DNA from: Streptomyces sp. P9-A2
GTDB taxonomy: Bacteria > Actinomycetota > Actinomycetes > Streptomycetales > Streptomycetaceae
Assembly: GCF_036634175.1 (NCBI RefSeq)
Contig: NZ_JAZIFX010000001.1
Coordinates: 2,170,001-2,234,000 of the forward strand
Length of the DNA stretch: 64,000 nucleotides
Reading direction: 5' to 3'
Part shown: one piece after another, positions 1,621-16,091 of the stretch
How the letters are laid out: the number at the start of each line of letters is the position of its first letter
Numbering within the stretch: position 1 is the first letter of the stretch
Made by a program: the position numbers and the translations under genes
The notes under the pieces: generated by a model
Database searches by the model: none
Seen by the model: the letters and a program-made list of their open reading frames with translations, nothing else
Told to the model about the DNA's origin: nothing

Positions 1621-1760
1621 CAGCCGGGCAGCCTGCGCCATGCCATGTCGCGGCTCATTGCCTCCCCTATGTCCGAACAACAGACGGCACCCTTCGGACC
1701 GGCCGGGTGTGCCGCCGCATTCGATCACAGCACAACAACATTGGAACTTCCTGGAAAATC

Positions 1761-1797
1761 TTGGCATAGATTGGCTCCTGCGCTATGCTGCCCCGCA
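1761..1797 (+). promoter_or_regulatory. Sigma-70-like promoter giving a probable leaderless transcript
   Basis: TTGGCA (1761-1766), a 17-bp spacer and TATGCT (1784-1789) form a near-consensus vegetative promoter. The expected start point, seven bases after the -10 box, falls on the A of the ATG at 1797. This predicts a leaderless mRNA, which is common in Streptomyces, and argues for 1797 rather than the ATG at 1785 that overlaps the -10 box. Confidence 0.6.
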
Positions 1798-2672
1798 TGG
1801 CGGCATCACTGGAGGCGCTCGAACAGCGCTTGTCCCACCTGCGCACCGAACTGCGCGGCGCTGTACGCGCACGGGACAAGGCCGAAATCGCGCGCATCCG
1901 CCGCGCGCTGCGCGAGGCCGAGGCGGCATGGGAGCAGGCCCTCGAGTCCGAGGCCGGACCGGACAGCGAGACACTCCTGGCCGAGCCACCGGCCCCACAG
2001 GTGTCGGTGGCCGCAGGAGAACCACGTCGCAGGGAACGCCCTGCGCACGGCTCCATCCCGGTCCGCGAACAGGTTCACCAAGCGCTCACGCTGCTGGGCG
2101 CCCCCGCCTCCCCCAAGCTCATCTCGTCCACGTACGAGGCGTTCTTCACCGAGCCGCTGGTGGCCACCAAACTCGCGTCGCTCCGTCGCGACGAGGAGCG
2201 CTCCTTCACGGCGCAGGGTTATGCCCGCCCGTACTACGTCTGTGCGGCGCTGACCCACGACCGCCTCGTCCCCGCACGCGGGCTCCTGGCCCTGTCCACC
2301 TGGCCCGTGGAGCGGCGGATCATCGGTCCGCTCAGCCCGCGCACCGACTTCCTCACCCACGCGGTGGGAACCGCCGAGCAGATCCAGCGACTCGCCACTG
2401 CGGGGCATCCGGCCCCGGAGGCGGCCGGGCGGCTGCTGCGCCGTTTCGCCCTCCCGATCCCGGGCGCCTACGACGCCGCGGCCCCGGAGCCCGATCCCGC
2501 CCGCGTGATCGCCGCCGCCCGTGCCGAAGCTGCCGTCCACCAGCAGGAGGACGACCAGCAGCGGCAAGCGGCCGCACAGCGTGCCCGTGCCCAACTCGCA
2601 GACGGACAGCAATTGTTCGGTGCCCCGCCGATGCGCGACGCCCTGCGCGACGCGAGCGGAACCCTGCCCTGA
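1797..2672 (+). CDS. Unknown protein, first gene of the putative helicase/nuclease cassette
   Basis: 291 residues, no family recognised. Residues 1-45 are a charged, heptad-like helix (LEALEQRLSHLRTELRGAV, then repeated Arg/Glu/Ala). An acidic Pro-rich linker follows. The centre (about 85-175) contains LLGAPASPKLISSTYEAFF and RDEERSFTAQGYARPYYVC, which could be a winged-helix-like module. The C-terminus is Ala/Gln/Arg-rich helix. No membrane segment or signal peptide is present. It is followed after about 70 bp by the Fe-S RecB-fold gene and then two overlapping genes, so it probably belongs to the same transcript. A DNA-binding or assembly role is inferred from context only. Confidence 0.75.
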   Translation: MAASLEALEQRLSHLRTELRGAVRARDKAEIARIRRALREAEAAWEQALESEAGPDSETLLAEPPAPQVSVAAGEPRRRERPAHGSIPVREQVHQALTLLGAPASPKLISSTYEAFFTEPLVATKLASLRRDEERSFTAQGYARPYYVCAALTHDRLVPARGLLALSTWPVERRIIGPLSPRTDFLTHAVGTAEQIQRLATAGHPAPEAAGRLLRRFALPIPGAYDAAAPEPDPARVIAAARAEAAVHQQEDDQQRQAAAQRARAQLADGQQLFGAPPMRDALRDASGTLP

Positions 2673-2744
2673 CCCTTCCCGGCGGCGATGACGCCGGATG
2701 CCTCGTGCTCCGGCGAGTCCCGAAGACGTTCCGAAGTAGAGACG

Positions 2745-3863
2745 ATGCCCTCGCAGCAGTCCGAACCTCCCGACGACCGATTCGCACGGCTGCGCGGACG
2801 GCAGTCCCCTCAGCCGTACACCGCCCGCAAGATCACCGCCTTGACCGCCAACCCCGCCTGCTCTCGCCGCGCCGTCCTCGACGCCGCCGGAGTGGACAAG
2901 GCGCTTCTCGCCCAACGGGTCGGATATGAGCCGCGCTTCGGCCAGTCGCCCTTCGCCCTCGCCCGCGAGCAGGCGTTCCACGGCCTCGTGAAGTGGGGCG
3001 CGTACGCCGAGCTCATCCGGCTGCTGCGCGAACAGCTCTCCGTCCCCGTGGCGGAGGCCCACGTCACCGACCTCAACGAGGTCGGGGGCAACACGTCCCT
3101 GCACGTACGCGAGCGGGAGACCCGCCGCCTCATCGCGCACGTGTCCTCCGGCCAGGACATACGGCTCATCCTCGACCGCCCCGTGCTCACCCTCGAAGTC
3201 GCCGGCCAGACGGCGTACTTGGAGCCGGACGCGCTCACCCACCGCATCGAGGGGAAGTTCCACGTCGTTCTGATCCGCTCGTTCGCGGCGATCGACGGCC
3301 AGGCCAACCCGACCGCCGTCGCCGAGGCGGCCAAGCAGGCCGCGGTGTACGTCCTCGCCCTGCGCCGCACCTTCGAGACCGCCGGCCTGCCCACCGGGCA
3401 GATCTCCCACGAGTTCCTGCTCGTCTGCCCCAAGGACTTCTCCAACCGGCCCTACGGCCGTCTGCTCGACCTCCGGCAGGAACTCGACGCCCTCCAGTTC
3501 CAGCTCTCCCGGCTGCGGCGCGCCGAGGACCTCGCGGCCCGGCTCCCCGAGACGGCGACCCTGGACACGGACCGGAGCGTGGACGAACTCTCCTCGTCCA
3601 TAGGGGCGTTGGATGCCTCGTACACGCCCGACTGCCTGTCCTTCTGCGAGATGGCGCGCTACTGCCGTGACGAGGCCGACGAGTGCGCCTCGCCGGCCCG
3701 TCTGGGCAGCGGCGTGCGCAACGACCTGCCGGGCATCGACTCCACCCGTATCGCACTCGACTACCTGGACGGCGTCACCGCCCCGGGGGAGGCCGAGGCG
3801 GAAGCCGCCGACCGGCTGCGCGCCGCCGCCCGGCTGCGTCGACTCCGCCGGGGGGCCGCATGA
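2745..3863 (+). CDS. Cas4/AddB-like Fe-S RecB-fold (PD-(D/E)XK) protein
   Basis: 372 residues from the ATG at 2745; an ATG at 2688 would add 19 unlikely residues. One Cys near the N-terminus (C39, NPACSRR) and a C-terminal cluster (C297, C301, C307, C314 in TPDCLSFCEMARYCRDEA) match the one-plus-three arrangement that binds a 4Fe-4S cluster in Cas4, AddB and Dna2 nucleases. LEPDAL followed by FHVVLIRSF and then KQAAVY (a QxxxY motif) fits the RecB-type fold. The usual Glu-x-Lys of the active site reads Leu-Ile-Arg, so catalysis may be lost or use other residues. Its stop overlaps the next start (ATGA). Together with the helicase at 5368 it suggests DNA-end processing. Confidence 0.7.
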   Translation: MPSQQSEPPDDRFARLRGRQSPQPYTARKITALTANPACSRRAVLDAAGVDKALLAQRVGYEPRFGQSPFALAREQAFHGLVKWGAYAELIRLLREQLSVPVAEAHVTDLNEVGGNTSLHVRERETRRLIAHVSSGQDIRLILDRPVLTLEVAGQTAYLEPDALTHRIEGKFHVVLIRSFAAIDGQANPTAVAEAAKQAAVYVLALRRTFETAGLPTGQISHEFLLVCPKDFSNRPYGRLLDLRQELDALQFQLSRLRRAEDLAARLPETATLDTDRSVDELSSSIGALDASYTPDCLSFCEMARYCRDEADECASPARLGSGVRNDLPGIDSTRIALDYLDGVTAPGEAEAEAADRLRAAARLRRLRRGAA

Positions 3864-5371
3864 GCGTCCTGTCCACCGTCGCGGCGCTCACGGCGTCCCG
3901 CACCGGCCGTGCCGAGCCGCTGACCACCGTCCGCCACCAGCACCTGGACGAGAAGCCGTTCGTCCTGGTGCCGCTCACCCTCGCCGGGGAGACGTGCGCG
4001 CCCCTGGCCGCGCTCGCGGGTACGGACCTCGAACACCCGACCCTCCTCACCGTCCGTCAGCCGCGCAACCGAGCCGAACGCTTCCGGTTCGCCGAACGCC
4101 TCGCTGCCCTGCTCCTCGCGCACATCGACGGATGCCGGACGGAGACGGAGCCCTACACCGTCGGCCGCGGCAAGGAGAAGGAGGAACGCCTGCGCTTCCA
4201 GCGGGCCCCGCAGTTCCTCGTGCCGAACGGCGAGGGCATCGCGTACGTGCGCCTGCTCGGCCGTCTGACCCGACTGCGCGCCACCGAAGGACCCTACGCG
4301 GTCGCCCCGTCCGTGCCCGCCCTCGGCAAATGGCTGACCTGGTACGCGGAGCTGGCCGAGTTCCCGGACTCCGGTGTGCTCCTCGCGATGACCCGGCTGC
4401 TCTCCGCACACTGGGCCACGGGCCAGAGCCCGTCGGAGGACTCCCACCTCGCGTCCCTCCTCGCCTGGATCGATCCGCCGGAGGGTGGCGATGGCGCGCA
4501 GGCGGCGCGCGAGGCGGAGGACCCCGCGGTGTGGCCACCGGCCGGCCCGTCCACGGACCCGGTCTTCGACCGGACCCTCCACGAGCTGATGACGCGCTAC
4601 GACGAGGCGTCCGACGACCGCGGACGCGAGGCGGTCGGCCGTCAGATCGACCGTGAGCTGAGCGGCCAGATGCTGCCCACCTGGCGGCTGATGTGGCGCG
4701 GCGTGGAGCTGCTCCGCGATCTGCCCGAGGGCGACCACGTCCCCGGCCGCTGGGCCCTCGACCGGCGCTGGTTCTCCGAGTACGCCGAGTACCTGGACGC
4801 CGACGGCCGCCCGCAGGCCCGCCGCGACCAGGCCGTCAGGGCCGCCCGCCGCCTGGCCCGGCTGGAGGACGCGGTCGCCCGCTACGAGGCGCAGCGCGCG
4901 TACGACGATCCGCTGGTGATGGCGGAGTACGAGCTGGCCGGTGAGGCGTTCACCGGGACGGTGACGGCCAGGGACGAGGACCGCTTCCTCCCCGGTGCCC
5001 GGCCGGGTTCCCAAGTGTGGCGTCCGACGATCACGCTGCGCACCGACACCCGTATCGGCCTCGCGGTCGGCACGGAGGTGAAGTCCCCCGCCCGGCCCGG
5101 CCAGGAGGCGCGGATCCTCGAGGTACGGCAGGAGGACGACGGCGGCCACACCGTGCTGCTCCAGCTCAAGGGCGGCTTCGCGAACAAGCGCAAGCCTCCG
5201 GCACCGGCCGGCACCCTCGCGGACACCGGCGAGGAGCTGACGTACACCACGCTCAACCCCACGGCCATGCCGTCCGCCCTGCCCGGCGAGGAGAACACCC
5301 CCTGGACCCACGGCGGCCCGCCACGGCCCTACGAACCCACCGACGAGGACGCAGAGGAGACCTGGGAGTGA
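3860..5371 (+). CDS. Unknown protein, third gene of the cassette
   Basis: 503 residues, no family recognised. The N-terminal 170 residues are mixed alpha/beta (FVLVPLTLAGETCAPLAAL and a basic/acidic patch GRGKEKEERLRF). The middle is helical and rich in Arg/Glu/Trp (TWRLMWRGVELLRDLP, ARRLARLEDAVARYEAQRA). The last 110 residues look like a small beta barrel (VWRPTITLRTDTRIGL, VLLQLKGGF) followed by an acidic tail. No signal peptide or membrane segment. The start overlaps the upstream stop by 4 bp and the stop overlaps the helicase start by 4 bp, so all three are translationally coupled. This suggests a fixed-ratio complex. Confidence 0.75.
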   Translation: MSVLSTVAALTASRTGRAEPLTTVRHQHLDEKPFVLVPLTLAGETCAPLAALAGTDLEHPTLLTVRQPRNRAERFRFAERLAALLLAHIDGCRTETEPYTVGRGKEKEERLRFQRAPQFLVPNGEGIAYVRLLGRLTRLRATEGPYAVAPSVPALGKWLTWYAELAEFPDSGVLLAMTRLLSAHWATGQSPSEDSHLASLLAWIDPPEGGDGAQAAREAEDPAVWPPAGPSTDPVFDRTLHELMTRYDEASDDRGREAVGRQIDRELSGQMLPTWRLMWRGVELLRDLPEGDHVPGRWALDRRWFSEYAEYLDADGRPQARRDQAVRAARRLARLEDAVARYEAQRAYDDPLVMAEYELAGEAFTGTVTARDEDRFLPGARPGSQVWRPTITLRTDTRIGLAVGTEVKSPARPGQEARILEVRQEDDGGHTVLLQLKGGFANKRKPPAPAGTLADTGEELTYTTLNPTAMPSALPGEENTPWTHGGPPRPYEPTDEDAEETWE

Positions 5372-6732
5372 CCACCCTCCTTCCCGGCACCGAAAACCCC
5401 GACGCCCTCACCCCCGGCGAGCGCGCGGACCTGGCGGTCGCCGGAATCCTGACCAGTCTCGACACGGCGCCCGGCCGGGGCGTCGTCGTGGACTCGCCCC
5501 CTGGGGCCGGAAAGTCCACGCTGGTGGTGAAGGCAACCGGGCACCTGACGTCCGCGGGTCATCAGCTCATGGTCGTCGCGCAGACCAACGAGCAGGTCGA
5601 CGACCTGGTGGACCGCATCGCGCAGACCCATCCCGACCTGGCGCTCGGCCGCCTCCACGCCGGCGGCCACGTCCTCCCGCCCCGTGTCACCCGTCACCCC
5701 AACGTCACCGGGAGCAGCCAGGTGACGGACCTGCGCGACCTGCCCGTCGTGGTGTCCACCGCGAAGAAGTGGTCGTTCGTCAGCCCGGACAAGTGCGCGC
5801 CGTGGCGGTGGGCCATCGTCGACGAGGCGTACCAGATGCGCTCGGACGCGCTCCTGGCGACGGCCCCGCTGTTCGCCCAGGGCGACTCGCAGGTCCTCTT
5901 CGTCGGCGACCCCGGCCAGCTCGACCCCTTCGCCACCGTGGAGACCGACCGCTGGCACGGCCTGACCTGGGACCCCCTGCGCAACGCGGTCGACGTCACC
6001 CTCGCCCACAACCCCGACCTGGTCCGCCACCAGCTCCCCGTCTCCTGGCGCCTCCCGGAGACGGCGGCACCCCTGGTCGAGCAGGCCTTCTACCCCTTCT
6101 ACCGGTTCATCCCCGGCACGACGGCGCCCGAGCGTGTGCTGTCGTACGCCAGCCTGTCCCACGGCTCCGGCCCCCTGGACGACGTCCTCGCCCGGGCCGC
6201 CGACTCCGGCTGGGGCCACCTGGAACTCCCCGCCCGCCACACCCTCGACCAGGACCCGGAGGTGGCGGATGCCCTCGCGGCGACGGCGGCCAGGCTGCTG
6301 GAGCGCGGTGCGCTGGTCAACGGCGAACCCCTGACCGCGGACCGCATCGCGATCGGCACGGCACGCACCGTGCAGGCGGAGGCGGTCCGCTCCCGCCTCA
6401 CCGCCCGCGGCCTGACCGGCATCACCGTGGACACCGCCAACCGCCTCCAGGGCCGTGAGTTCGACGTCACCCTCGTCTGGCACCCGCTCTCCGGCCGCCA
6501 GGACGCCTCCGCCTTCCACCTGGAGACGGGCCGCCTGTGCGTCCTGCTCTCCCGGCACCGCTTCGCCTGCATCGTGGTCGCCCGCGCCGGCATCCGCGAC
6601 CTCCTGGACCGGCACCCGCGCAGCAGCCCCGTGTACCTGGACGTACCGCCGAAGTTCCCGGACGGGTGGCGGGCGCATCAGGTGGTCATGGGGTGGCTGG
6701 AGCGGGGGGAGCACAGGGTGCGGGCTACTTGA
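5368..6732 (+). CDS. Small superfamily 1 DNA/RNA helicase
   Basis: 454 residues starting at GTG (GTGA overlap with the preceding stop). SF1 motifs appear in order: Walker A DSPPGAGKST (about 42-51), Walker B/DExx WAIVDEAYQ (about 149-157), motif III VLFVGDPGQLDPF, the motif IV region PVSWRLP, motif V VDTANRLQGREFDV, and motif VI TGRLCVLLSRHR. The layout is that of the UvrD/UPF1-like AAA_11/12 class. At 454 residues it is near the minimal helicase core, with no nuclease domain or large accessory domains of its own. A RecB-fold protein two genes upstream would supply the missing partner, as in AddAB or Dna2. Confidence 0.85.
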   Translation: MTTLLPGTENPDALTPGERADLAVAGILTSLDTAPGRGVVVDSPPGAGKSTLVVKATGHLTSAGHQLMVVAQTNEQVDDLVDRIAQTHPDLALGRLHAGGHVLPPRVTRHPNVTGSSQVTDLRDLPVVVSTAKKWSFVSPDKCAPWRWAIVDEAYQMRSDALLATAPLFAQGDSQVLFVGDPGQLDPFATVETDRWHGLTWDPLRNAVDVTLAHNPDLVRHQLPVSWRLPETAAPLVEQAFYPFYRFIPGTTAPERVLSYASLSHGSGPLDDVLARAADSGWGHLELPARHTLDQDPEVADALAATAARLLERGALVNGEPLTADRIAIGTARTVQAEAVRSRLTARGLTGITVDTANRLQGREFDVTLVWHPLSGRQDASAFHLETGRLCVLLSRHRFACIVVARAGIRDLLDRHPRSSPVYLDVPPKFPDGWRAHQVVMGWLERGEHRVRAT

Positions 6733-6966: not shown

Positions 6967-7011
6967 CCTACGCCAGTGAATCCACGTCCACACCCCGGAG
7001 GTTCCGTTTTT

Positions 7012-10000
7012 ATGGTCCCCAGCGAAGCGGGCCGCACGATCGACCGTTTGGGCAAGCATCTGACCGGCGCTACGCGTCTGGACTCGCTGTCTGAGTCGTT
7101 CTCCGTGTTCGTCTACGAGGCGCTCCAGGACGATTTGGCCGATGTCGACCTGCGCCTGCTCCTGCACGGTCACAGTCTCGACGACTTCGCCCTGAACGGC
7201 CTCGCTGCGGAGAATCTCCACCGCGCCCGGCTGGACCAGCACCGCATTGCCCGGGCGTTTACGGCCTGGGCCGAAGAACATCTCCGGACAAGGGCCCTCA
7301 AGCGGCGCACGCGCGGCACCTGGACGAGCGTCGACGGCCCGTTCCCTTATGTCGTCGACGGCGCGGGCCTTGAGGCCGAAAGCCTCGGTCTGGTGGCGTC
7401 CCAGGACCTGTACTTTCCCCTGGAGACCACGGACGCTGACAAGGTGGCGCAGACCGTGGTCCGCTTCGAGCGCATGTGGCACGACGACGCGACCAGCACT
7501 GCCGTTCAGGAGGAGTTCCTCGACGCGGCCCGGGCCCTCTTCGAGGACAGGGCCCCCGAGTCCGTTTACCTGCGCGTCCTGACGTCTCTGTTCAAGGATT
7601 TCGTCGAGGAGGCCGGCGAGGAAACCGTCGAGCGCGGCAGAACGGGCTTCTACGACTCCGCAGTGTGGAAGAAGCTCTACAAGTTCCAGCGTGACGGTGT
7701 GCTCGGCGCTATCGAGAAGCTCGAGCGCCATAACGGCTGCATCATCGCCGACAGTGTGGGCTTGGGAAAGACCTTCGAAGCACTCGCCGTCATCAAGTAC
7801 TACGAGCTGCGCAACGACCGTGTCCTCGTCCTGGCGCCCAAGCGACTGCGGGAGAACTGGACCATCTACCGCGGCAACGACAGGCGAAACCCGCTGGCAG
7901 CGGACCGCTTCCACTATGACGTCCTGAACCACACCGACCTCAGCCGGACCGGCGGGCTATCGGGGGACATCGACCTGGCGAACGTCAACTGGGGCAACTA
8001 TGACCTCGTCGTGATCGACGAGTCCCACAACTTCCGCAATAACCCGCAGGTCAAGGGGCGGACGACCCGGTACGAGCGCCTCATGGAGGAGGTCTTCAGG
8101 TCCGGTGTGAGGACCAAGGTCCTCATGCTCAGTGCGACGCCCGTGAACACGCGCCTGGCCGACCTGAAAAACCAGGTCCTGTTCGCCACCGAGGGAGACG
8201 ACCGGGCACTGGCTTCAGACGGGATCAGGAGTATCGAGACCACACTGAACAAGGCGCAGAGGCACTTCAAAGAGTGGCAGCGCCTGCCCGCGGCCACCCG
8301 GAGCACGAAGTCCCTGGTCGGTACGCTCGGCATGGATTACATCCGGCTGCTGGACCTGGTCACGATCGCCCGCTCCCGCAAGCACATCGAAAAGTACTAC
8401 GGCACCAAGGACGTCGGGAGATTCCCCACCCGCCTGGCTCCGGTCAACCTCATTCCGCCCATCGACACGACCGACATGATGATCTCGCTGGAGGAGATCA
8501 ACCGGTCGATCCTGCGCCTCAACCTGGCGGCCTACAAACCCACTTCCTACGTCAGCGCGAAGTACGAGAGCAAGTACGCGGCCCTGTACGACCAGAGAGT
8601 GCGCACGGGCGGCCAACGTGTGTGGCGACAGACCGACCGTGAGAACAACGTGGTCCACCTGCTGCGAGTGGGTCTGCTCAAGCGCTTGGAGTCCTCCGTC
8701 AACTCCCTGGGCAAGACTCTCGGCAAAATCCTCGCCACTATGGAGGGCGCGATCGCCAGCATCGACGCCTACGAGGCGACCGGGGCCGAGGGAACGTCCA
8801 TTGACAGTTTCACCGACCTGGAGAAGATCGACCTGGACGACCCCCAGTTCGAGGACACTGTCGGCGGCAGCGTCAAGGTCTTCCTCGCCGACATCGACCG
8901 GGTGCGGTGGCGACAGGAACTCGAGCAGGACCGGGACACCGTGGCCGCTCTGCTCGCAGAGGTGACGGCGGTCGACGCCGACCGCGACGCCAAGCTGGCC
9001 GAGCTCAAGCGGTTCCTGCGCGACAAGGTCGAGCACCCCACCAACGACGACAACCGTAAGGCCCTGGTGTTCACCGCGTTCAGCGACACCGCCGAATACC
9101 TCTACGGGCATGTGGCCCACTGGGCACGTGACGAACTGGGTGTTCACATGGCCCTGATCACGGGGCAGAGCACCCGGACCACCCTCCCGATGAAGCGCGT
9201 CCACATGGTCGACGTCCTCACCGCGTTCTCACCGCGCTCCAAGGACGGTAACCCGGACGACCCGCAGATCGACATCGTGATCGCCACCGACACCATCTCC
9301 GAGGGCCAGAACCTCCAGGACTGCGACACGGTGATCAACTACGACATCCACTGGAACCCGGTGCGCATCGTCCAGCGTTTCGGCCGCGTCGACCGTCTCG
9401 GCACCACCAACACGAGTGTCCAACTCGTCAATTTCTGGCCCAACATGGACCTGGACGCCTACATCAACCTCGAGGCGCGTGTGTCCAGCCGCATGACCCT
9501 GTTGGACGTCTCCGCAACCGGTGAGGAGAACGTCCTGGACGTCACATCCGGTGATATGAACGACCTCGCCTACCGGCGCAAGCAACTGCAGCAGATGCAG
9601 CAGGCCGCTCCCACCATGGAGGACCTCGCCGGCGGTCTGAGCATCACCGACCTGACGCTCTCCGACTTCCGGATGGACGCCGCCGCCCGTGCACGGGGAG
9701 AGCTTCAGGAGATCACCGGGTGGCCCCTGGCTCTCTTCGGCGTCACCCGCTTCGACAAGGCCCTCGCCGACGACGGGCTCGTTCCTGGAGCAGTCTTCCT
9801 CCTGCGCGTGAGGGACGACGCGATCTCCTTCTCCGAGGCGTACCCGCTGGCGCCGTACGTGCTGGCCTACGTGACCGACGACGGCAGCCTCGCGCACGAG
9901 ATCGAGGAACCCAAACTGGCCCTCGACGTCCTGCGCCACCACTGCCTGGGCGACACCGAACCCGACGCCGCCGTCCTCGCGGAGTTCGACCGGGCGACCA

Positions 10001-10188
10001 GGTCGGGCAGGTCCATGAAGCACTACCGCAACCTTCTGGACGTGGCGGTCCGAGCCGCTTCCGGCAAGGCCGAAGAGAGCATGGTGGCCTCACTCTTCTC
10101 GGCGGGCCCCTCACAACTGGGAACGGAGGCCGCCGCGCCCGGTCTGGAAGCCGTGGACGTGATCGCGTGGATGGCGGTGCTCCCGTGA
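7012..10188 (+). CDS. SNF2/RapA-like helicase of the extended type III R-M operon
   Basis: 1058 residues from the ATG at 7012, chosen because GGAGG lies 10 bp upstream; a GTG at 6976 is also in frame. The N-terminal 230 residues carry no recognised domain. The first RecA lobe has IIADSVGLGKTFEAL (Walker A, about 244-258) and LVVIDESHNFRNN (DESH box, about 332-344). The second lobe has IDIVIATDTISEGQNLQ and RIVQRFGRVDRLGT (motifs V and VI). This is the SNF2/HepA class of dsDNA translocase rather than a type I HsdR. The stop overlaps the DUF4391 gene by 4 bp, so the two are coupled. It probably remodels or translocates DNA for the downstream Mod/Res enzymes. Confidence 0.85.
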   Translation: MVPSEAGRTIDRLGKHLTGATRLDSLSESFSVFVYEALQDDLADVDLRLLLHGHSLDDFALNGLAAENLHRARLDQHRIARAFTAWAEEHLRTRALKRRTRGTWTSVDGPFPYVVDGAGLEAESLGLVASQDLYFPLETTDADKVAQTVVRFERMWHDDATSTAVQEEFLDAARALFEDRAPESVYLRVLTSLFKDFVEEAGEETVERGRTGFYDSAVWKKLYKFQRDGVLGAIEKLERHNGCIIADSVGLGKTFEALAVIKYYELRNDRVLVLAPKRLRENWTIYRGNDRRNPLAADRFHYDVLNHTDLSRTGGLSGDIDLANVNWGNYDLVVIDESHNFRNNPQVKGRTTRYERLMEEVFRSGVRTKVLMLSATPVNTRLADLKNQVLFATEGDDRALASDGIRSIETTLNKAQRHFKEWQRLPAATRSTKSLVGTLGMDYIRLLDLVTIARSRKHIEKYYGTKDVGRFPTRLAPVNLIPPIDTTDMMISLEEINRSILRLNLAAYKPTSYVSAKYESKYAALYDQRVRTGGQRVWRQTDRENNVVHLLRVGLLKRLESSVNSLGKTLGKILATMEGAIASIDAYEATGAEGTSIDSFTDLEKIDLDDPQFEDTVGGSVKVFLADIDRVRWRQELEQDRDTVAALLAEVTAVDADRDAKLAELKRFLRDKVEHPTNDDNRKALVFTAFSDTAEYLYGHVAHWARDELGVHMALITGQSTRTTLPMKRVHMVDVLTAFSPRSKDGNPDDPQIDIVIATDTISEGQNLQDCDTVINYDIHWNPVRIVQRFGRVDRLGTTNTSVQLVNFWPNMDLDAYINLEARVSSRMTLLDVSATGEENVLDVTSGDMNDLAYRRKQLQQMQQAAPTMEDLAGGLSITDLTLSDFRMDAAARARGELQEITGWPLALFGVTRFDKALADDGLVPGAVFLLRVRDDAISFSEAYPLAPYVLAYVTDDGSLAHEIEEPKLALDVLRHHCLGDTEPDAAVLAEFDRATRSGRSMKHYRNLLDVAVRAASGKAEESMVASLFSAGPSQLGTEAAAPGLEAVDVIAWMAVLP

Positions 10189-10955
10189 CGGACGTACCCC
10201 GCGATCACGACGGTGCCGCCCTGTTGGCTCTGCCCGACAAGGCACGCCAGCACCATCGCATCACGAAGAAGCTGCTCGCCGCCCAGTTCGAGGATCAGGC
10301 CCCCGCCGACGCCCGTCTGATCACCAAGGCGGTGGCCTCGGCTCAACTGGTCGGCATCCTGCGCCCGGAGACCATCCAGGCACCCATGTACCAGGACAGC
10401 GAGCGTGCTGTCGTCGACATCCCGGTTCTCGAGGCGTTCCTGGCCGACAAGACCTCGGCGTCGGACAGGACCCGCGTGGCCGAACTCATCCACCGCAGCA
10501 TGGCCAAGCCGGTGGTGCTGTTCGCGCACATACACGACGGCACCACCACCCTCTCGCTGGCGCTCAGCCACGTCAGCCGCACGGACCCCACTCAGTCGAC
10601 CTCCGTGATAGACGCACACGTCATGGTGCCGACCGGGGGCATCGAACCGGGCGCCCTGCACCTGGAGCGGCTCGACCGCACGGACATGTGGGCGCTGTAC
10701 CGCGACCTCGTGCGCACCGCCGCCGCCGACGGCCGCCCGGCCGGCACTGCCCTGCGGGCAGCGAACGCGATCACGCTGCGTCGACGGTTGACCGACCTGG
10801 AGAGCGAACTGATCGCGGTTGTACGGGACGCAAAACGTGCGAAGAACCAGCAGCAGCGCATCGATCTGAACACGGCGACACGGACGCTACGTGCACAGAT
10901 CGGACATGTCAGAGGCAACCTATACAGTGCCGACGGCGACCGCGACAACACCTGA
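10185..10955 (+). CDS. DUF4391 domain protein
   Basis: 256 residues starting at GTG inside the helicase stop (GTGA). The pattern ALPDKARQHHRITKKLLAAQF near the N-terminus and a C-terminal helical region (LTDLESELIAVVRDAKRAK) match DUF4391 proteins, which recur beside helicase-plus-methylase defence operons. No catalytic motif is visible. The family's biochemical role is unknown to me; position suggests an adaptor between the SNF2 motor and the modification/restriction pair. About 45 bp of AT-richer sequence separates it from mod. Confidence 0.75.
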   Translation: MTDVPRDHDGAALLALPDKARQHHRITKKLLAAQFEDQAPADARLITKAVASAQLVGILRPETIQAPMYQDSERAVVDIPVLEAFLADKTSASDRTRVAELIHRSMAKPVVLFAHIHDGTTTLSLALSHVSRTDPTQSTSVIDAHVMVPTGGIEPGALHLERLDRTDMWALYRDLVRTAAADGRPAGTALRAANAITLRRRLTDLESELIAVVRDAKRAKNQQQRIDLNTATRTLRAQIGHVRGNLYSADGDRDNT

Positions 10956-11000
10956 GCAGTCCATAAATCCCCACCTATACACACAAGAAAGACATCACTC

Positions 11001-12995
11001 GTGACCCTGGACTTCGAATCAGTCGACGACCTGACCGGCCCCGGCGAGGCCAAGTCGAACCTCGACGCACTGGCCCGTCTCTTCCCCGACGCCGTCGTCA
11101 ACGGCACCGTCGATATCGAGGCCCTCCGGGACCTGCTGGGTGAGAACGCCGCCCCCACAACCGCCGAGGCGTTCGGCCTGCGCTGGCCGGGCATGGCCGA
11201 AGCCCGCCGCCTGTCCACCCTCCCAGCGACGGGCACGCTCCTGCCGAAGCAGGAGGAGTCCGTGGACTGGGACAACACCCGCAACATCGTGGTCGAGGGC
11301 GACAACCTCGAGGTGCTGCGTCTGCTGCGGCGCGGGTATACCAACAAGGTCGACGTGATCTACATCGACCCGCCTTACAACACGGGCAACGACTTCATCT
11401 ACGACGACAAGCGCGTCACCTCGCAGGTCGAGCACGAGATGGTGGCGGGGCAGCGGGACGAAGAGGGGGCGCTTCAGACCGGCACCGGCTCCGACCGGGC
11501 ACAGGATCGCAGGGCCGGAGCATCCAAGCATTCGGCATGGTTGTCGATGATGTATCCGCGATTGCTTGTGGCACACCATCTACTCAAGGAAACGGGCGTC
11601 ATCATAATTGCCATTGATGACACAGAGCATGCACGTCTCAAGCTTCTGATGGATCGGGTGTTCGGGGCGGAAAACTTCGCGGCAAACGTAGTATGGCAAG
11701 GGTCCGGCCGGAATGACGCCCGATTCACTTCCGCAGGAATCGACTACATGGTCATCTATGCGAAGTCGAAGAAAACTTTGATTCAGAAAGATGCGCGTTG
11801 GACCGAGGAGAAGACGGGTGGGGCTGAAGTCGCCGCGGCGGCACACAAATTCTGGGAAGAGAACCGCCATGACCCGGAAGCAGCGACTGAAGCTTTGCAG
11901 AATTGGTGGAAGAACGCCCCGAAAGATATCGCGAAGGGCCTTGGGGGCTCTCGCGGATACAAGGAAATCGACGAGAACGGGCGTGTTTTTGCGCGGGGCG
12001 ACTTGAGCTCCCCCAATCCTCGGGAAAACCTCATGTACGATCTCCCTCACCCCGTGAGTGGGCTTCCCGTCCGCAGGCACTCAAGCGGTTGGCGCTACTC
12101 GCGAGAGACCATGTCACAAAAGATTGCCGAGGGTCGAATTCTTTTCGGCGAGGACGAGACCGTGAGCCCCCGGTACAAGCGCTTCCTGGATGAGCTTGAG
12201 GACCAGCCAATCCGTCCTGTTTTCGAGCGAGATCGGGCAGCCGCAGGGGCGCAGCTTTGCCGCCTTCTGGGTAGCGATGTATTCGAGTATCCGAAGGATC
12301 ATACTGTGCTCGCCAAATGGATCAGCGCAGTGTCCGAATCGGATCCTGATGCAGTAATTCTTGACTTTTTTGCGGGTTCGGGCTCTACGGGCCACGCCGT
12401 CATGGACCTCAACGCCGCTGACGGCGGCAACCGTCGGTACATCCTGGTCCAGCTCGACGAGGCCGTCGACAAGGACGGCTACGACACGATCGCCGACATC
12501 ACCCGCGAGCGCCTCCGCCGTGCGGGCCAGCAGATTACGTCCGAGCAAAACCCCAACACAGCCCTCATCGACACCGGCTTCCGGTCGTACCGCCTCGCGT
12601 CCAGCAATGTGAAAGCCTGGGACGGGACACCCGACCAGCTGGACCTGCTGGAGGCCGTGAACAACCTTGTGGCCGGGCGTACCGCGGACGATCTGCTAGT
12701 CGAGATGATGCTGCGTATGGGCGTGGAGCTGACCACGCCGCTGGAGACGCGCGAGGTTTCCGGTAGCCCGCTGTACAACCTAGCGGGCACGCTATTCGCG
12801 TACTTCGGTACCGACATCACGATCGACCGGGCGAACGAGGTCGCCAAGGCTCTGGCGGCCTGGCGTGACGAGGACCCGAGCGACGCCGACACCACGGTCG
12901 TCGTCCGCGACACCGGCTTCGTCGACTCCGCCACCAAGCTCAACTTCGCCGCCGCGCTCAAGCAGGCCGGCTTCACCACATTGCGGAGCATCTGA
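11001..12995 (+). CDS. Type III restriction-modification methyltransferase subunit (Mod)
   Basis: 664 residues from a GTG start. The catalytic motif IV YIDPPYNTGND (DPPY at 123-126) precedes the SAM-binding motif I DFFAGSGSTGHAV (about 455-467), so this is a beta-class N6-adenine or N4-cytosine methyltransferase as in type III systems. In these enzymes the stretch between the two motifs is the target-recognition domain. Here that stretch (about 11530-12370) is visibly AT-richer, with codons such as AAA, ATT and TTT that are rare in the flanking catalytic parts. The gene abuts res directly (stop TGA, then ATG). The product would methylate one strand of an asymmetric site and guide Res. Confidence 0.92.
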   Translation: MTLDFESVDDLTGPGEAKSNLDALARLFPDAVVNGTVDIEALRDLLGENAAPTTAEAFGLRWPGMAEARRLSTLPATGTLLPKQEESVDWDNTRNIVVEGDNLEVLRLLRRGYTNKVDVIYIDPPYNTGNDFIYDDKRVTSQVEHEMVAGQRDEEGALQTGTGSDRAQDRRAGASKHSAWLSMMYPRLLVAHHLLKETGVIIIAIDDTEHARLKLLMDRVFGAENFAANVVWQGSGRNDARFTSAGIDYMVIYAKSKKTLIQKDARWTEEKTGGAEVAAAAHKFWEENRHDPEAATEALQNWWKNAPKDIAKGLGGSRGYKEIDENGRVFARGDLSSPNPRENLMYDLPHPVSGLPVRRHSSGWRYSRETMSQKIAEGRILFGEDETVSPRYKRFLDELEDQPIRPVFERDRAAAGAQLCRLLGSDVFEYPKDHTVLAKWISAVSESDPDAVILDFFAGSGSTGHAVMDLNAADGGNRRYILVQLDEAVDKDGYDTIADITRERLRRAGQQITSEQNPNTALIDTGFRSYRLASSNVKAWDGTPDQLDLLEAVNNLVAGRTADDLLVEMMLRMGVELTTPLETREVSGSPLYNLAGTLFAYFGTDITIDRANEVAKALAAWRDEDPSDADTTVVVRDTGFVDSATKLNFAAALKQAGFTTLRSI

Positions 12996-15900
12996 ATGAA
13001 GTTCTCCTTCGACGCGGACCTCGAGTACCAGCGTCAGGCCATCGACGCGGTCACGGGCCTGTTTAAGGGACAGGAGGCCATGACCTCCCAGTTCACCGTG
13101 CACGCGCATCCGTCCGCGCACGGTGGGTTCGAGGGGCTCTCCGACCTGGGGTACGGCAACATGCTGCACCTGGACGAAGAGACAATCCTCGCGAACCTGC
13201 GCGAGGTGCAGAACCGCACCGGTCTCGCCCCGGAGCCGTCGCTGGACTCGATGAACTTCACCATCGAAATGGAGACCGGAACCGGCAAGACGTACGTCTA
13301 CCTGCGGACCATTTACGAGCTCAACCAGCTCTACGGATTCACCAAATTCATGGTGGTCGTCCCGTCGGTAGCTATCAAGGAGGGCATCGAGACGTCCATC
13401 CAGATGCTGCGTGAGCACTTCGCGACCCTGTATGGAAATCCGCCGATGAACCCCTTCCAGTTTGACGGCAACAATCCCTCCCGCGTTCGTTCCTTCTCCA
13501 CCTCGCCCAGTATCGAGGTCATGATCGTCACCGTCGGGGCGATCAACAAGAAGACCAACAAGATCTACCAGCCTGCTGAGGACCTCGACTTCGAGGTCCC
13601 CGCCGATCTGATCCGGGCCACGAAGCCGATCATCATCGTCGACGAGCCACAGAGCGTGTACGGGGACACAGGTAACGGCAGGAAGAAAGGCGCGGGGCGC
13701 AGCGCGCTGGAAAACTTCAATGCCCTGGCTACGTTGCGCTATTCAGCCACCCACCCGAAGGACGACAAGGCCAACCTCGTCTACCGCCTCGACGCCATCG
13801 CCGCCTACGAGAACGAGCTGGTCAAGCAGATCGAGGTCGACTCCCTGGTCACCTCTGCCAGCGGGACGACCCCGTACGTCAGGTTCCTCGGGGCGAAGCG
13901 CGGCAAGGCTGGAACGATCACGGCCCGCGTCGAGGTGGATGTCGAGGAGGGCAACGAGATCAAGCGTAAGGCGGTCACCGTCGACACCGGGTCACGCAGC
14001 AACCTCGCGGATGCGACCGGACGTGACTTGTACAAGGACCTCACGGTGGTCGCCATCACCGCGACCCAGGGGCAGGAGAGCATCTCCTTCGACACCGTCG
14101 CACAGCCACTGGGTTCAGGCGACAGTATCGGCGCCGAGGTCAGCGTAGGTGAGCGAGCCCGCCAGATGATCGCCCAGACCATCCGGCAACACCTGTGCAA
14201 GGAGCAGGAGTTCGCGATCCACGAACGCGACATAAAGGTACTCAGCCTGTTCTTCGTCGATTCCGTGGCCAAGTACCGGGAGTACGGCCCCGACGGAGAG
14301 GCCCTGCCGGGCGAGTACCAGCGGATCTTCGAGGAGGAGTACACGCGCATCACCTCCGAGCCAGAGTTCAACACTCTGTTGGGCGGCTCCGCCGCCGACC
14401 AGGTCGCGAAAGAGACCCACCAGGGGTACTTCTCCGTGGACCGCCGCAAAGGCGGCAGCGAGGTGCTGGTGGACACCAAGGAGACCACTGACAAGGGGCG
14501 CCAGCAGGCCGGTCTGGCCTACGAGCAGATCATGCGGGACAAGGTCGGCCTGACCACGCCCGGCACTGCCATCCGGTTCATCTTCAGCCACTCTGCACTG
14601 CAAGAGGGCTGGGACAATCCCAACGTTTTCCAGATCTGTGTTTTGAGGAACATGGGCACAGAGCGGTGGCGACGCCAGTCCATCGGGCGGGGCCTGCGCC
14701 TGTGCGTGGACGGGTCGGGCAACCGGGTGCACGGCTTCGACACCAACCGCCTCACCGTGATCGCGAACGAGTCCTACGAGGAGTTCGCCGAGCGCCTCCA
14801 GCGCGAGATGGCCGACGACCTGGGTATCCGGTTCGGCGTCGTCACCGTGGACGGCATCGCGCGGCTGACTTTCAAGGCAGAGGACGGGAGCGTCGCCCCC
14901 GTGGGCGCGACCGCCGCGCAGCAGCTGTACCAGGCCTTGTTCTTCGAAGGGTATGTCGACGTCAAGGGGAAGGTGCAGGACAACCTGCGCGAGGCCGTAC
15001 AGACCGGTGACGCGAAACTTACGAAGCTTGTCAGCGACGCCGTGGATTCGGAGGCCGCCACCAAGGCTGTACTCGGACACTTCAAGCGCCTGGCCAAACC
15101 AATCGATGTCAAGAAAGCCGGCGAACGCATCGCGGTGCCCGTCGTCCAGGAGCGGCTGGACAGCCCCGAGTTCCAGGAGCTCTGGAACCGCATCCGGCAC
15201 CGCACGGAGTACCGCGTCGAGGTCGACGAAACCGACCTGCGCGCCGCAATGGTGAAGGCGCTGCGCACCATGCTCCCCGTGCCCAAGCGCCGGGGCGAGT
15301 GGTTCACGCGCCGTGTACGGCGCATAGACCAGAGTGGTCTGACTGCCGAAACTACGGCCGCGAGACGCACGGACGTCACCTACGCGGACAGCGAGGACCT
15401 GCCCGACATCCTGTCCGTTCTCGCGGACCGCACGCAGTTGACCCGTGCCACGATCGCCCACGTCCTCACCGAGTCGGGCACCCTCGGCCAGTTCCGGAAC
15501 AATCCGCAGGCGTACATCGACCAGGTAGGCCGCCAGCTCAACATCACCAAGGACCGCTTCCTGGTCGAAGGGGTGCGCTACGAGCTGGTGGACGCTTCTC
15601 GTCCCGAGGGGGACCGCCGGTACGCCCTCAGCCTGTTCCACGAGGCCGACCTCGCCGGCTACACCGGCCCCGGAGGAAACATCATCACGGACGCGGACGG
15701 CAACGCGGTGTCGTTCAAAGAGAAGTCCGTGTACCGCTACCTGATCATCGACTCGAATCCGGAGAAGGAATTCGCGCTCGCGCTCCTGCAGCGCCCCGAG
15801 GTCAAGACCTTCGTCAAGCTCCCGCCCTCGTTCAAGATCCCAACCCCCCTGGGGAGCTACAACCCCGACTGGGCCCTGACCGTAGAACGGACCGACGGCA

Positions 15901-16091
15901 GCCGCTACATCGTCTTCGAGACCAAGGATGTCAACGAGACAGAACTACTGCGCATCGGAGAACAAGACAAGATCACTTCTGCCCGCGCACACTTCGACGC
16001 GGTAACGCGAGATGCCGCAATAGACGATCTTGAGTACGAGGTCGTCAACGGCATCGAGGCGGCGACCGCCGTGATGGAACGGGACGCTTGA
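12996..16091 (+). CDS. Type III restriction endonuclease subunit (Res)
   Basis: 1031 residues. SF2 helicase motifs: EMETGTGKTYV (Walker A, about 91-101), IIIVDEPQSVYG (DEPQ box), and a second lobe with ALQEGWDNPNVFQIC and WRRQSIGRGLRLCVD. The C-terminus has a PD-(D/E)XK nuclease: YNPDWALTVE (about 955-964) followed by RYIVFETKDVNE (ETK about 975-977). All catalytic elements are present and the length fits full Res proteins. It forms a complex with Mod, and the SNF2 and DUF4391 genes upstream enlarge the usual two-gene system to four. Confidence 0.92.
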   Translation: MKFSFDADLEYQRQAIDAVTGLFKGQEAMTSQFTVHAHPSAHGGFEGLSDLGYGNMLHLDEETILANLREVQNRTGLAPEPSLDSMNFTIEMETGTGKTYVYLRTIYELNQLYGFTKFMVVVPSVAIKEGIETSIQMLREHFATLYGNPPMNPFQFDGNNPSRVRSFSTSPSIEVMIVTVGAINKKTNKIYQPAEDLDFEVPADLIRATKPIIIVDEPQSVYGDTGNGRKKGAGRSALENFNALATLRYSATHPKDDKANLVYRLDAIAAYENELVKQIEVDSLVTSASGTTPYVRFLGAKRGKAGTITARVEVDVEEGNEIKRKAVTVDTGSRSNLADATGRDLYKDLTVVAITATQGQESISFDTVAQPLGSGDSIGAEVSVGERARQMIAQTIRQHLCKEQEFAIHERDIKVLSLFFVDSVAKYREYGPDGEALPGEYQRIFEEEYTRITSEPEFNTLLGGSAADQVAKETHQGYFSVDRRKGGSEVLVDTKETTDKGRQQAGLAYEQIMRDKVGLTTPGTAIRFIFSHSALQEGWDNPNVFQICVLRNMGTERWRRQSIGRGLRLCVDGSGNRVHGFDTNRLTVIANESYEEFAERLQREMADDLGIRFGVVTVDGIARLTFKAEDGSVAPVGATAAQQLYQALFFEGYVDVKGKVQDNLREAVQTGDAKLTKLVSDAVDSEAATKAVLGHFKRLAKPIDVKKAGERIAVPVVQERLDSPEFQELWNRIRHRTEYRVEVDETDLRAAMVKALRTMLPVPKRRGEWFTRRVRRIDQSGLTAETTAARRTDVTYADSEDLPDILSVLADRTQLTRATIAHVLTESGTLGQFRNNPQAYIDQVGRQLNITKDRFLVEGVRYELVDASRPEGDRRYALSLFHEADLAGYTGPGGNIITDADGNAVSFKEKSVYRYLIIDSNPEKEFALALLQRPEVKTFVKLPPSFKIPTPLGSYNPDWALTVERTDGSRYIVFETKDVNETELLRIGEQDKITSARAHFDAVTRDAAIDDLEYEVVNGIEAATAVMERDA

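Follow-up and report, generated by a model that had tools for sequence, protein, structure and literature searches.

Dna2, the eukaryotic helicase/nuclease, is built from an iron-sulfur (Fe-S) nuclease, a barrel and a helicase. TM0106-type proteins (TIGR03491) place a RecB-like nuclease, an RNase_H_2 domain and a superfamily 1 (SF1) helicase in one chain, and pPIWI-RE islands have been described as three-gene units (Burroughs et al. 2013, PMC3702460). Here we analyzed a 64,000-nucleotide (nt) stretch of Streptomyces sp. P9-A2 (NZ_JAZIFX010000001.1, positions 2,170,001-2,234,000, forward strand; hereafter the window), and within it a cassette of four genes, A to D, that bears on all three. It is best read as an offshoot of a conserved complex within the RecB/Dna2-like helicase-nuclease kind, and not as a categorically new system. 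We put at roughly 45% the probability that defence islands have taken over a repair helicase complex as a partner that does not cut, the window holding an accessory copy of a split TM0106-type enzyme. The cassette comprises:

1761-1789, + strand: promoter of the cassette, TTGGCA-17-TATGCT, 7 base pairs (bp) before the ATG at 1797; same layout in all 20 loci of the window's clade
1797-2672, + strand: A, helical protein of about 291 amino acids (aa)
2745-3863, + strand: B, Fe-S PD-(D/E)XK-like protein of 372 aa, active site lost, four cysteines retained
3860-5371, + strand: C, protein of 503 aa with a predicted RNase H fold resembling PolB exonucleases and a predicted Sen1-like beta-barrel
5368-6732, + strand: D, Dna2/SMUBP2-like SF1 helicase of 454 aa, motor motifs intact

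An initial annotation had proposed four genes, three of them overlapping by 4 bp and the first ~70 bp upstream of the second, expressed from a promoter of their own. The coordinates were confirmed, with 4-bp overlaps at B/C and C/D and a gap of 72 bp between A and B. The promoter was also upheld: a pattern scan returned the single site at 1761-1789 (shuffled mean 0.1), and TTGGNN-17-TANNNT followed 6-7 bp later by an ATG was found in 20/20 loci of the window's clade, a count that includes the window. We place the start of A at 1797 because the alternative in-frame ATG at 1785 falls within the -10 hexamer and because the promoter-ATG layout is conserved in all 20 loci; this spacing suggests that the cassette transcript would be leaderless. 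The ratio of nonsynonymous to synonymous substitution rates (dN/dS) between the window and six relatives was 0.16-0.28 for A, 0.22-0.29 for B, 0.13-0.25 for C and 0.14-0.23 for D. Since the four-gene order recurs and these ratios span 0.13-0.29, chance open reading frames (ORFs) are ruled out; A-D form a real, recurring tight operon with a conserved promoter. Inspection by eye of seven upstream sequences also revealed TTGG/TGGAA words at ~10-bp spacing upstream of A (window 1740-1779), a possible operator.

Protein B looks like a nuclease whose active site is broken in this clade. Four cysteines in an Fe-S arrangement were conserved in 68/68 aligned copies. The lysine of the E-x-K motif was present in all 48 copies outside the clade and replaced by R in all 20 within it, the window's B reading I-R where E-x-K has its K. 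Within the clade the acid preceding this lysine was also gone in 17/20 copies, and in the remaining three (L062-L064) Q replaces the D of the P-D pair. L162, which lies outside the clade yet adjacent to it in the tree, has lost the acid and retained the lysine. The E-x-K lysine corresponds to that of D-x-K in the single-chain nuclease (16/16). Despite its broken site, B is under purifying selection, as its dN/dS of 0.22-0.29 to six relatives indicates. Pfam PDDEXK_1 weakly matched 1 of 12 members of the B family (expectation value, E, 0.007) and did not match the window's B. Weak matches and the residue pattern make it plausible that B belongs to the Fe-S PD-(D/E)XK (RecB-fold) family. The Fe-S RecB-fold assignment made earlier thus held for the cysteines and the PD...ExK pattern, with weak profile support and with a nuclease site that is broken here. 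A search of the Protein Data Bank (PDB) gave no sequence match of B to Dna2; its profile matches to two designed proteins (E 2.6e-13 and 7.8e-9) covered only profile positions 21-95 and were taken as compositional. A sequence relation between B and the pPIWI-RE-linked nuclease was likewise rejected as support (hhalign E 0.18).

The genome of strain P9-A2 contains three copies of the cassette by DNA search and tblastn: that of the window; an A-B-C-D copy (L010), 38-50% identical to it, on the 102-kb contig C2, which is probably a plasmid; and a B-C-D copy on the chromosome at 2.92 Mb (L009), 40-57% identical and with no match to A. A homologue of C was found in 281/295 sampled Streptomyces genomes. 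Copies of C at least 69% identical occurred in 11/295, the window's genome included, and A was matched in 25/295, one match being weak and containing stops. Genes of relatives were called by a simple script, and core (chromosomal), SbcCD-linked and window clades were delimited from their gene neighbourhoods and checked against the branching order of a single FastTree tree. All 11 fetched chromosomal loci were syntenic, with B-C-D following a gene for a tetratricopeptide repeat (TPR) protein that, in L009, scores above the NsdA family cut-off. No match to A was obtained in these 11 core loci (E 1e-5), and there were no defence genes among the identified neighbours of the chromosomal copy. The ORF in the slot of A (coreUpA) was rejected as a chromosomal A; it varies between loci and looked membrane-like by eye. 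Adjoining the plasmid copy, L010:4631-9940 encodes a 1769-aa protein with AAA_16/NACHT-type matches, whose counterpart beside the G129 copy is 84% identical over the part seen.

Upstream of B, each of the 11 core loci carried TTGTCRGTG-N8-NANNNT (6 exact, 4 with one mismatch, 1 with two), the consensus letters being those we take to define the RecA-NDp promoter motif. At up to two mismatches this motif was absent from all 57 other loci, window included, and its background at up to one mismatch was 0.024 per kb and strand; the first -10 base of the chromosomal-operon motif is not T. Because the 11 loci are orthologous, their count is not independent evidence. Across the P9-A2 genome there were 61 exact matches of this type and none to a reversed control, one of them being the chromosomal B-C-D site, and this disparity suggests a PafBC-type regulon in this Streptomyces. 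PafBC is reported to act through the RecA-NDp promoter (PMC6789036, PMC8223512), and in S. coelicolor such promoters are reported at recA and at the ultraviolet-inducible SCO6735 (PMC5087735). The chromosomal operon probably encodes a conserved, damage-linked DNA-processing complex.

The clade to which the window belongs (20 loci) occupies a different setting, which includes the following features of the window:

1621-1760, no strand assigned: remnant, comprising the intergenic region and ~40 bp of the first gene of a lost pPIWI-RE arm; homology edge
6976-10188, + strand: neighbouring SNF2 helicase
10284-10955, + strand: neighbouring DUF4391 gene
11001-12995, + strand: neighbouring type III Mod
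12996-16091, + strand: neighbouring type III Res

Divergent from the cassette, the clade carries an upstream arm encoding a PDDEXK_1 protein, pPIWI_RE_Y/REase, pPIWI_RE_Z and pPIWI_RE_X (Pfam on L048). By tblastn the arm was present in 17/20 loci, with the pPIWI_RE_X gene outside the fetched stretch in L062 and incomplete in others; the three loci in which it was not detected are the window, L050 and L060. Neither the 64 kb of the window nor the 20 kb preceding it yielded any gene of the arm, whether for pPIWI-RE, the DinG-like helicase or the REase. The arm's own nuclease keeps D...E-x-K and its cysteines intact in 6/6 aligned sequences. Its gene (L048:6160-7800, with counterparts in 17 loci), encoding an Fe-S PDDEXK_1 nuclease, is a fourth gene beside the pPIWI-RE island. 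Homology between the window and its relatives starts exactly at 1621 in 10/19 comparisons, and a further 4 place the start no more than 16 bp away; position 1621 is ~40 bp into the first gene of the arm. The arm was probably deleted or replaced in the window's lineage, to judge by this edge, and the type III restriction module remains. Upstream of the edge, where relatives have the arm, the window holds an ORF (481-1620) with a methyltransferase-like stretch by eye.

On the other side of the cassette, a restriction-like or Wadjet module adjoins 15/20 clade loci. Downstream of D we found SNF2-DUF4391-Mod-Res in six (window, L047, L048, L050, L058, L077), a ResIII-like gene with a distant Mod in five (L052, L054, L055, L057, L059), SNF2-NOV_C with a DUF1156 gene in two (L049, L053), a DUF499 gene in one (L056) and Wadjet type II in one (L060); domain names of the ResIII-like, SNF2-NOV_C/DUF1156 and DUF499 groups derive from one scanned member each. 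Nothing was recognised with the markers used in the other five (L051, where the contig ends soon after, and L061-L064). In L060, D appears split into frames (11515-12869).

Cassettes with A also occur in a second setting, in which divergent SbcD and SbcC genes precede A (18 fetched loci; these genes are in fragments in L012, and in L145 only part of SbcD was seen). SbcCD in L012 (170-2185) appears split into frames. Wadjet type I directly follows D in L011, L012 and L146, and stands one gene further on in L164; Wadjet type II follows D in L160, of the SbcCD-linked group, and in L060, of the window's clade. To our knowledge, A-D form no part of the Wadjet (JetABCD) definition. Matches to JetA-D were absent from the window and the 20 kb upstream by tblastn with the L011 type I proteins, type II not being searched. 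In G049 and G129, each chromosome end has a cassette copy ~24 kb inwards, an arrangement like that of terminal inverted repeats, and L011 is near the end of a linear plasmid; SbcCD with A-B-C-D, at times with Wadjet, was thus seen near linear-replicon ends (G049, G129, L164, L011). Because Wadjet is reported to be enriched at Streptomyces chromosome ends (PMC10482375), the end location of these cassettes may come with Wadjet. Among 20 loci fetched from matches of a search across the class, which sampled other families (L164 and L165 are from the same genus), A was present in, for example, L147-L149, L151 and L154, and was not found in L153 or L155-L158. One family has D separated from B-C, by 36 kb in one of its two genomes and by 49 kb in the other.

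Of the four proteins, D is the most readily recognised. It matches Pfam AAA_11 and AAA_12, and its profile finds SMUBP2 (E 2.8e-14) and DNA2 (E 3.2e-13). An alignment of 23 sequences shows no variation in the Walker A/B and remaining motor motifs; PADLOC 2.0 gave D four weak helicase matches, the best at E 5.7e-5. At E 0.1, neither Pfam nor NCBIfam nor PADLOC has a model that matches A, B or C. The structure model of A (pLDDT 63.8) was of too low quality for a structure search. That of C resembles a PolB-type exonuclease domain plus a Sen1-like barrel; a PDB search with C at E 1 gave no relative by sequence, and Pfam RNase_H_2 matched none of the 41 members of its alignment at E 1. Among viral contigs, the patterns used produced two matches to C, neither confirmed as a relative. 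Plasmids of Rhodococcus, Mycobacterium and Xylanimonas (L014:4056-9137, L015:3680-9140 and L016:3991-9131) carry a row of genes for a MoxR-type AAA protein, a VWA protein, a possible distant relative of C and a relative of D.

We liken the B-C-D layout to TM0106 because the three proteins resemble, in order, its nuclease, RNase H-like/barrel and helicase parts. The three single-chain proteins that we scanned have RNase_H_2 followed by AAA_11/AAA_12; two of them also match PDDEXK_1 weakly near the N terminus. In hhalign comparisons of the A-D proteins with 16 single chains, D aligned to positions 765-1138 (E 9.7e-31, 357 columns). The alignment of B to positions 28-308 was weak (271 columns, E 0.02, probability 2.3%; best E 1.7e-4 by hmmsearch against the 16 sequences). 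The barrel of C aligned at 647-700 (E 0.034, probability 1.5%) and that of the plasmid relative of C at 640-712 (E 0.079, 0.7%). As yardsticks, the pPIWI-RE-linked nuclease, which has a PDDEXK_1 match, gave E 0.011 over 24 columns, and A, for which no relation was expected, E 0.15. B-C-D is colinear with the single chain, yet the sequence relation is secure for D only.

The two architectures rarely share a genome. Among 394 genomes of the class, C occurred in 70 and TIGR03491 above its cut-off in 134, and both in 3 (G324, G527, G586), or 7 if matches below the cut-off are counted, where 23.8 would be expected if they were independent (nominal P 1.7e-10, inflated by relatedness). The same was seen within single families: one (f17) has 12 genomes with C and 18 with TIGR03491, in 8 genera each, with no overlap, and another (f18) has 15 and 17, one of the 17 below cut-off, with one genome shared. 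TIGR03491 scored above cut-off in 0/21 genomes of the relatives search, window's included, and matched none of A-D at E 0.1 (NCBIfam). The distributions of C and TM0106-type proteins are largely complementary.

These observations are consistent with a model in which B, C and D would be three subunits of one DNA-unwinding and processing complex, the split counterpart of a TM0106-type enzyme: D would pull DNA, C would join and shape the complex, and B would hold strands or ends. The chromosomal complex, whose B is expected to cut, probably acts on DNA ends or on damaged DNA, and DNA damage would switch it on. The window's copy, together with A, would be an accessory one, from a lineage living beside pPIWI-RE restriction islands. 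In this clade B, not expected to cut, would have become a subunit that probably binds DNA, while D would still run on DNA; the complex may open or clamp DNA ends or single strands and pass them to a neighbouring nuclease, or clean up after it. The receiving nucleases would be those of pPIWI-RE in relatives and the SNF2/type III module in the window. The E values of B and C against the single chain count for little by themselves, since the yardsticks score similarly. Against the reading of the promoter motif, conservation of the M. smegmatis motif in S. venezuelae is reported not to have emerged from an initial search (PMC9380542). A broader version is possible but doubtful, namely that the damage-inducible three-subunit complex is an interchangeable unwinding adaptor, recruited repeatedly by pPIWI-RE, two Wadjet types, type III and other restriction modules, and disarmed in the pPIWI-RE lineage because its partner brings an Fe-S nuclease.

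The initial annotation had put the cassette forward as a candidate for a new anti-phage or DNA-processing system. Several of its observations stood: the cassette does sit at the edge of restriction genes (6976-16091), D is an SF1 helicase, the resemblance to RecB/Dna2-like helicase-nucleases is supported by the DNA2/SMUBP2 and TM0106 helicase matches, A, B and C match no PADLOC defence model, and the cassette recurs beside defence genes elsewhere (pPIWI-RE, Wadjet and restriction modules). A stand-alone new anti-phage system was not supported, given that the closest family is a chromosomal operon present in almost every Streptomyces genome sampled, with a damage-type promoter motif, and that the putative nuclease B is broken in the clade. 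The annotation had also counted a match to a housekeeping recombination operon against its proposal; the chromosomal operon comes close to being a housekeeping one. The four-gene order does recur. The cassette is unlikely to be a new anti-phage system on its own, although it may still have a role in defence. A-B-C-D could work by itself against phages or plasmids, its neighbours reflecting ordinary defence-island clustering; this would fit the sporadic occurrence of close copies (11/295 genomes) and the range of modules that A-bearing copies adjoin, from pPIWI-RE (17/20) to Wadjet I (L011, L012, L146, L164), Wadjet II (L060, L160) and restriction modules; we consider it unlikely, as the nuclease presumed to be its effector has lost its active site in the window's clade, PADLOC has no model for it, and almost every Streptomyces genome sampled has a relative of C, the conserved chromosomal copy being one without identified defence neighbours.

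A role in repairing or protecting DNA ends, for a mobile replicon or the host, with the cassette merely travelling with defence genes in variable arms and plasmids, would account for the divergent SbcD/SbcC genes in 18 loci and for the copies near chromosome and linear-plasmid ends. It appears improbable: the window's clade is linked to pPIWI-RE and restriction modules rather than SbcCD and has a B that is not expected to trim ends. It is more doubtful still that the window's copy is a remnant with little or no function left after loss of its pPIWI-RE partner. The homology edge at ~1621 and the missing arm speak for it; however, none of the four reading frames is interrupted, the promoter has been conserved, dN/dS against six relatives is in the range 0.13-0.29 (though much of the divergence may predate the loss), and L050, which also lacks the arm beside A, retains the four genes and the same downstream module. 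The cassette points to an unnamed DNA-processing operon that almost every Streptomyces genome sampled has kept and that carries a predicted damage promoter, and to a copy in defence islands that remains under purifying selection although its nuclease is dead. Should this reading hold, deleting genes in laboratory Streptomyces would directly test how a repair complex is tied to several defence systems.

Among the matches listed in open-access literature on pPIWI-RE, Streptomyces defence/Wadjet and PafBC, a body that excludes subscription journals and preprints and was available in part, no description of the cassette was found. In comparison with the three-gene pPIWI-RE islands, which are its divergent neighbours in 17/20 clade loci, actinobacterial pPIWI-RE surroundings gain a fourth gene, for the Fe-S RecB-type nuclease, and a divergent helicase operon. 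Neither the extra gene nor the cassette was found in the available part of the description of those islands, and the words 'RecB' and 'Superfamily-I' are absent from its text (PMC3702460). TM0106 shares its order of parts with B-C-D and has a homologous helicase, but it is one chain where here there are three genes; C lacks the D-x-E of its RNase H domain, B and C are related to it by fold or pattern only, and B is dead in the window's clade. D has a Dna2-like SF1 motor (E 3.2e-13); unlike Dna2, B-C-D is split into subunits and includes an extra RNase H-like part.

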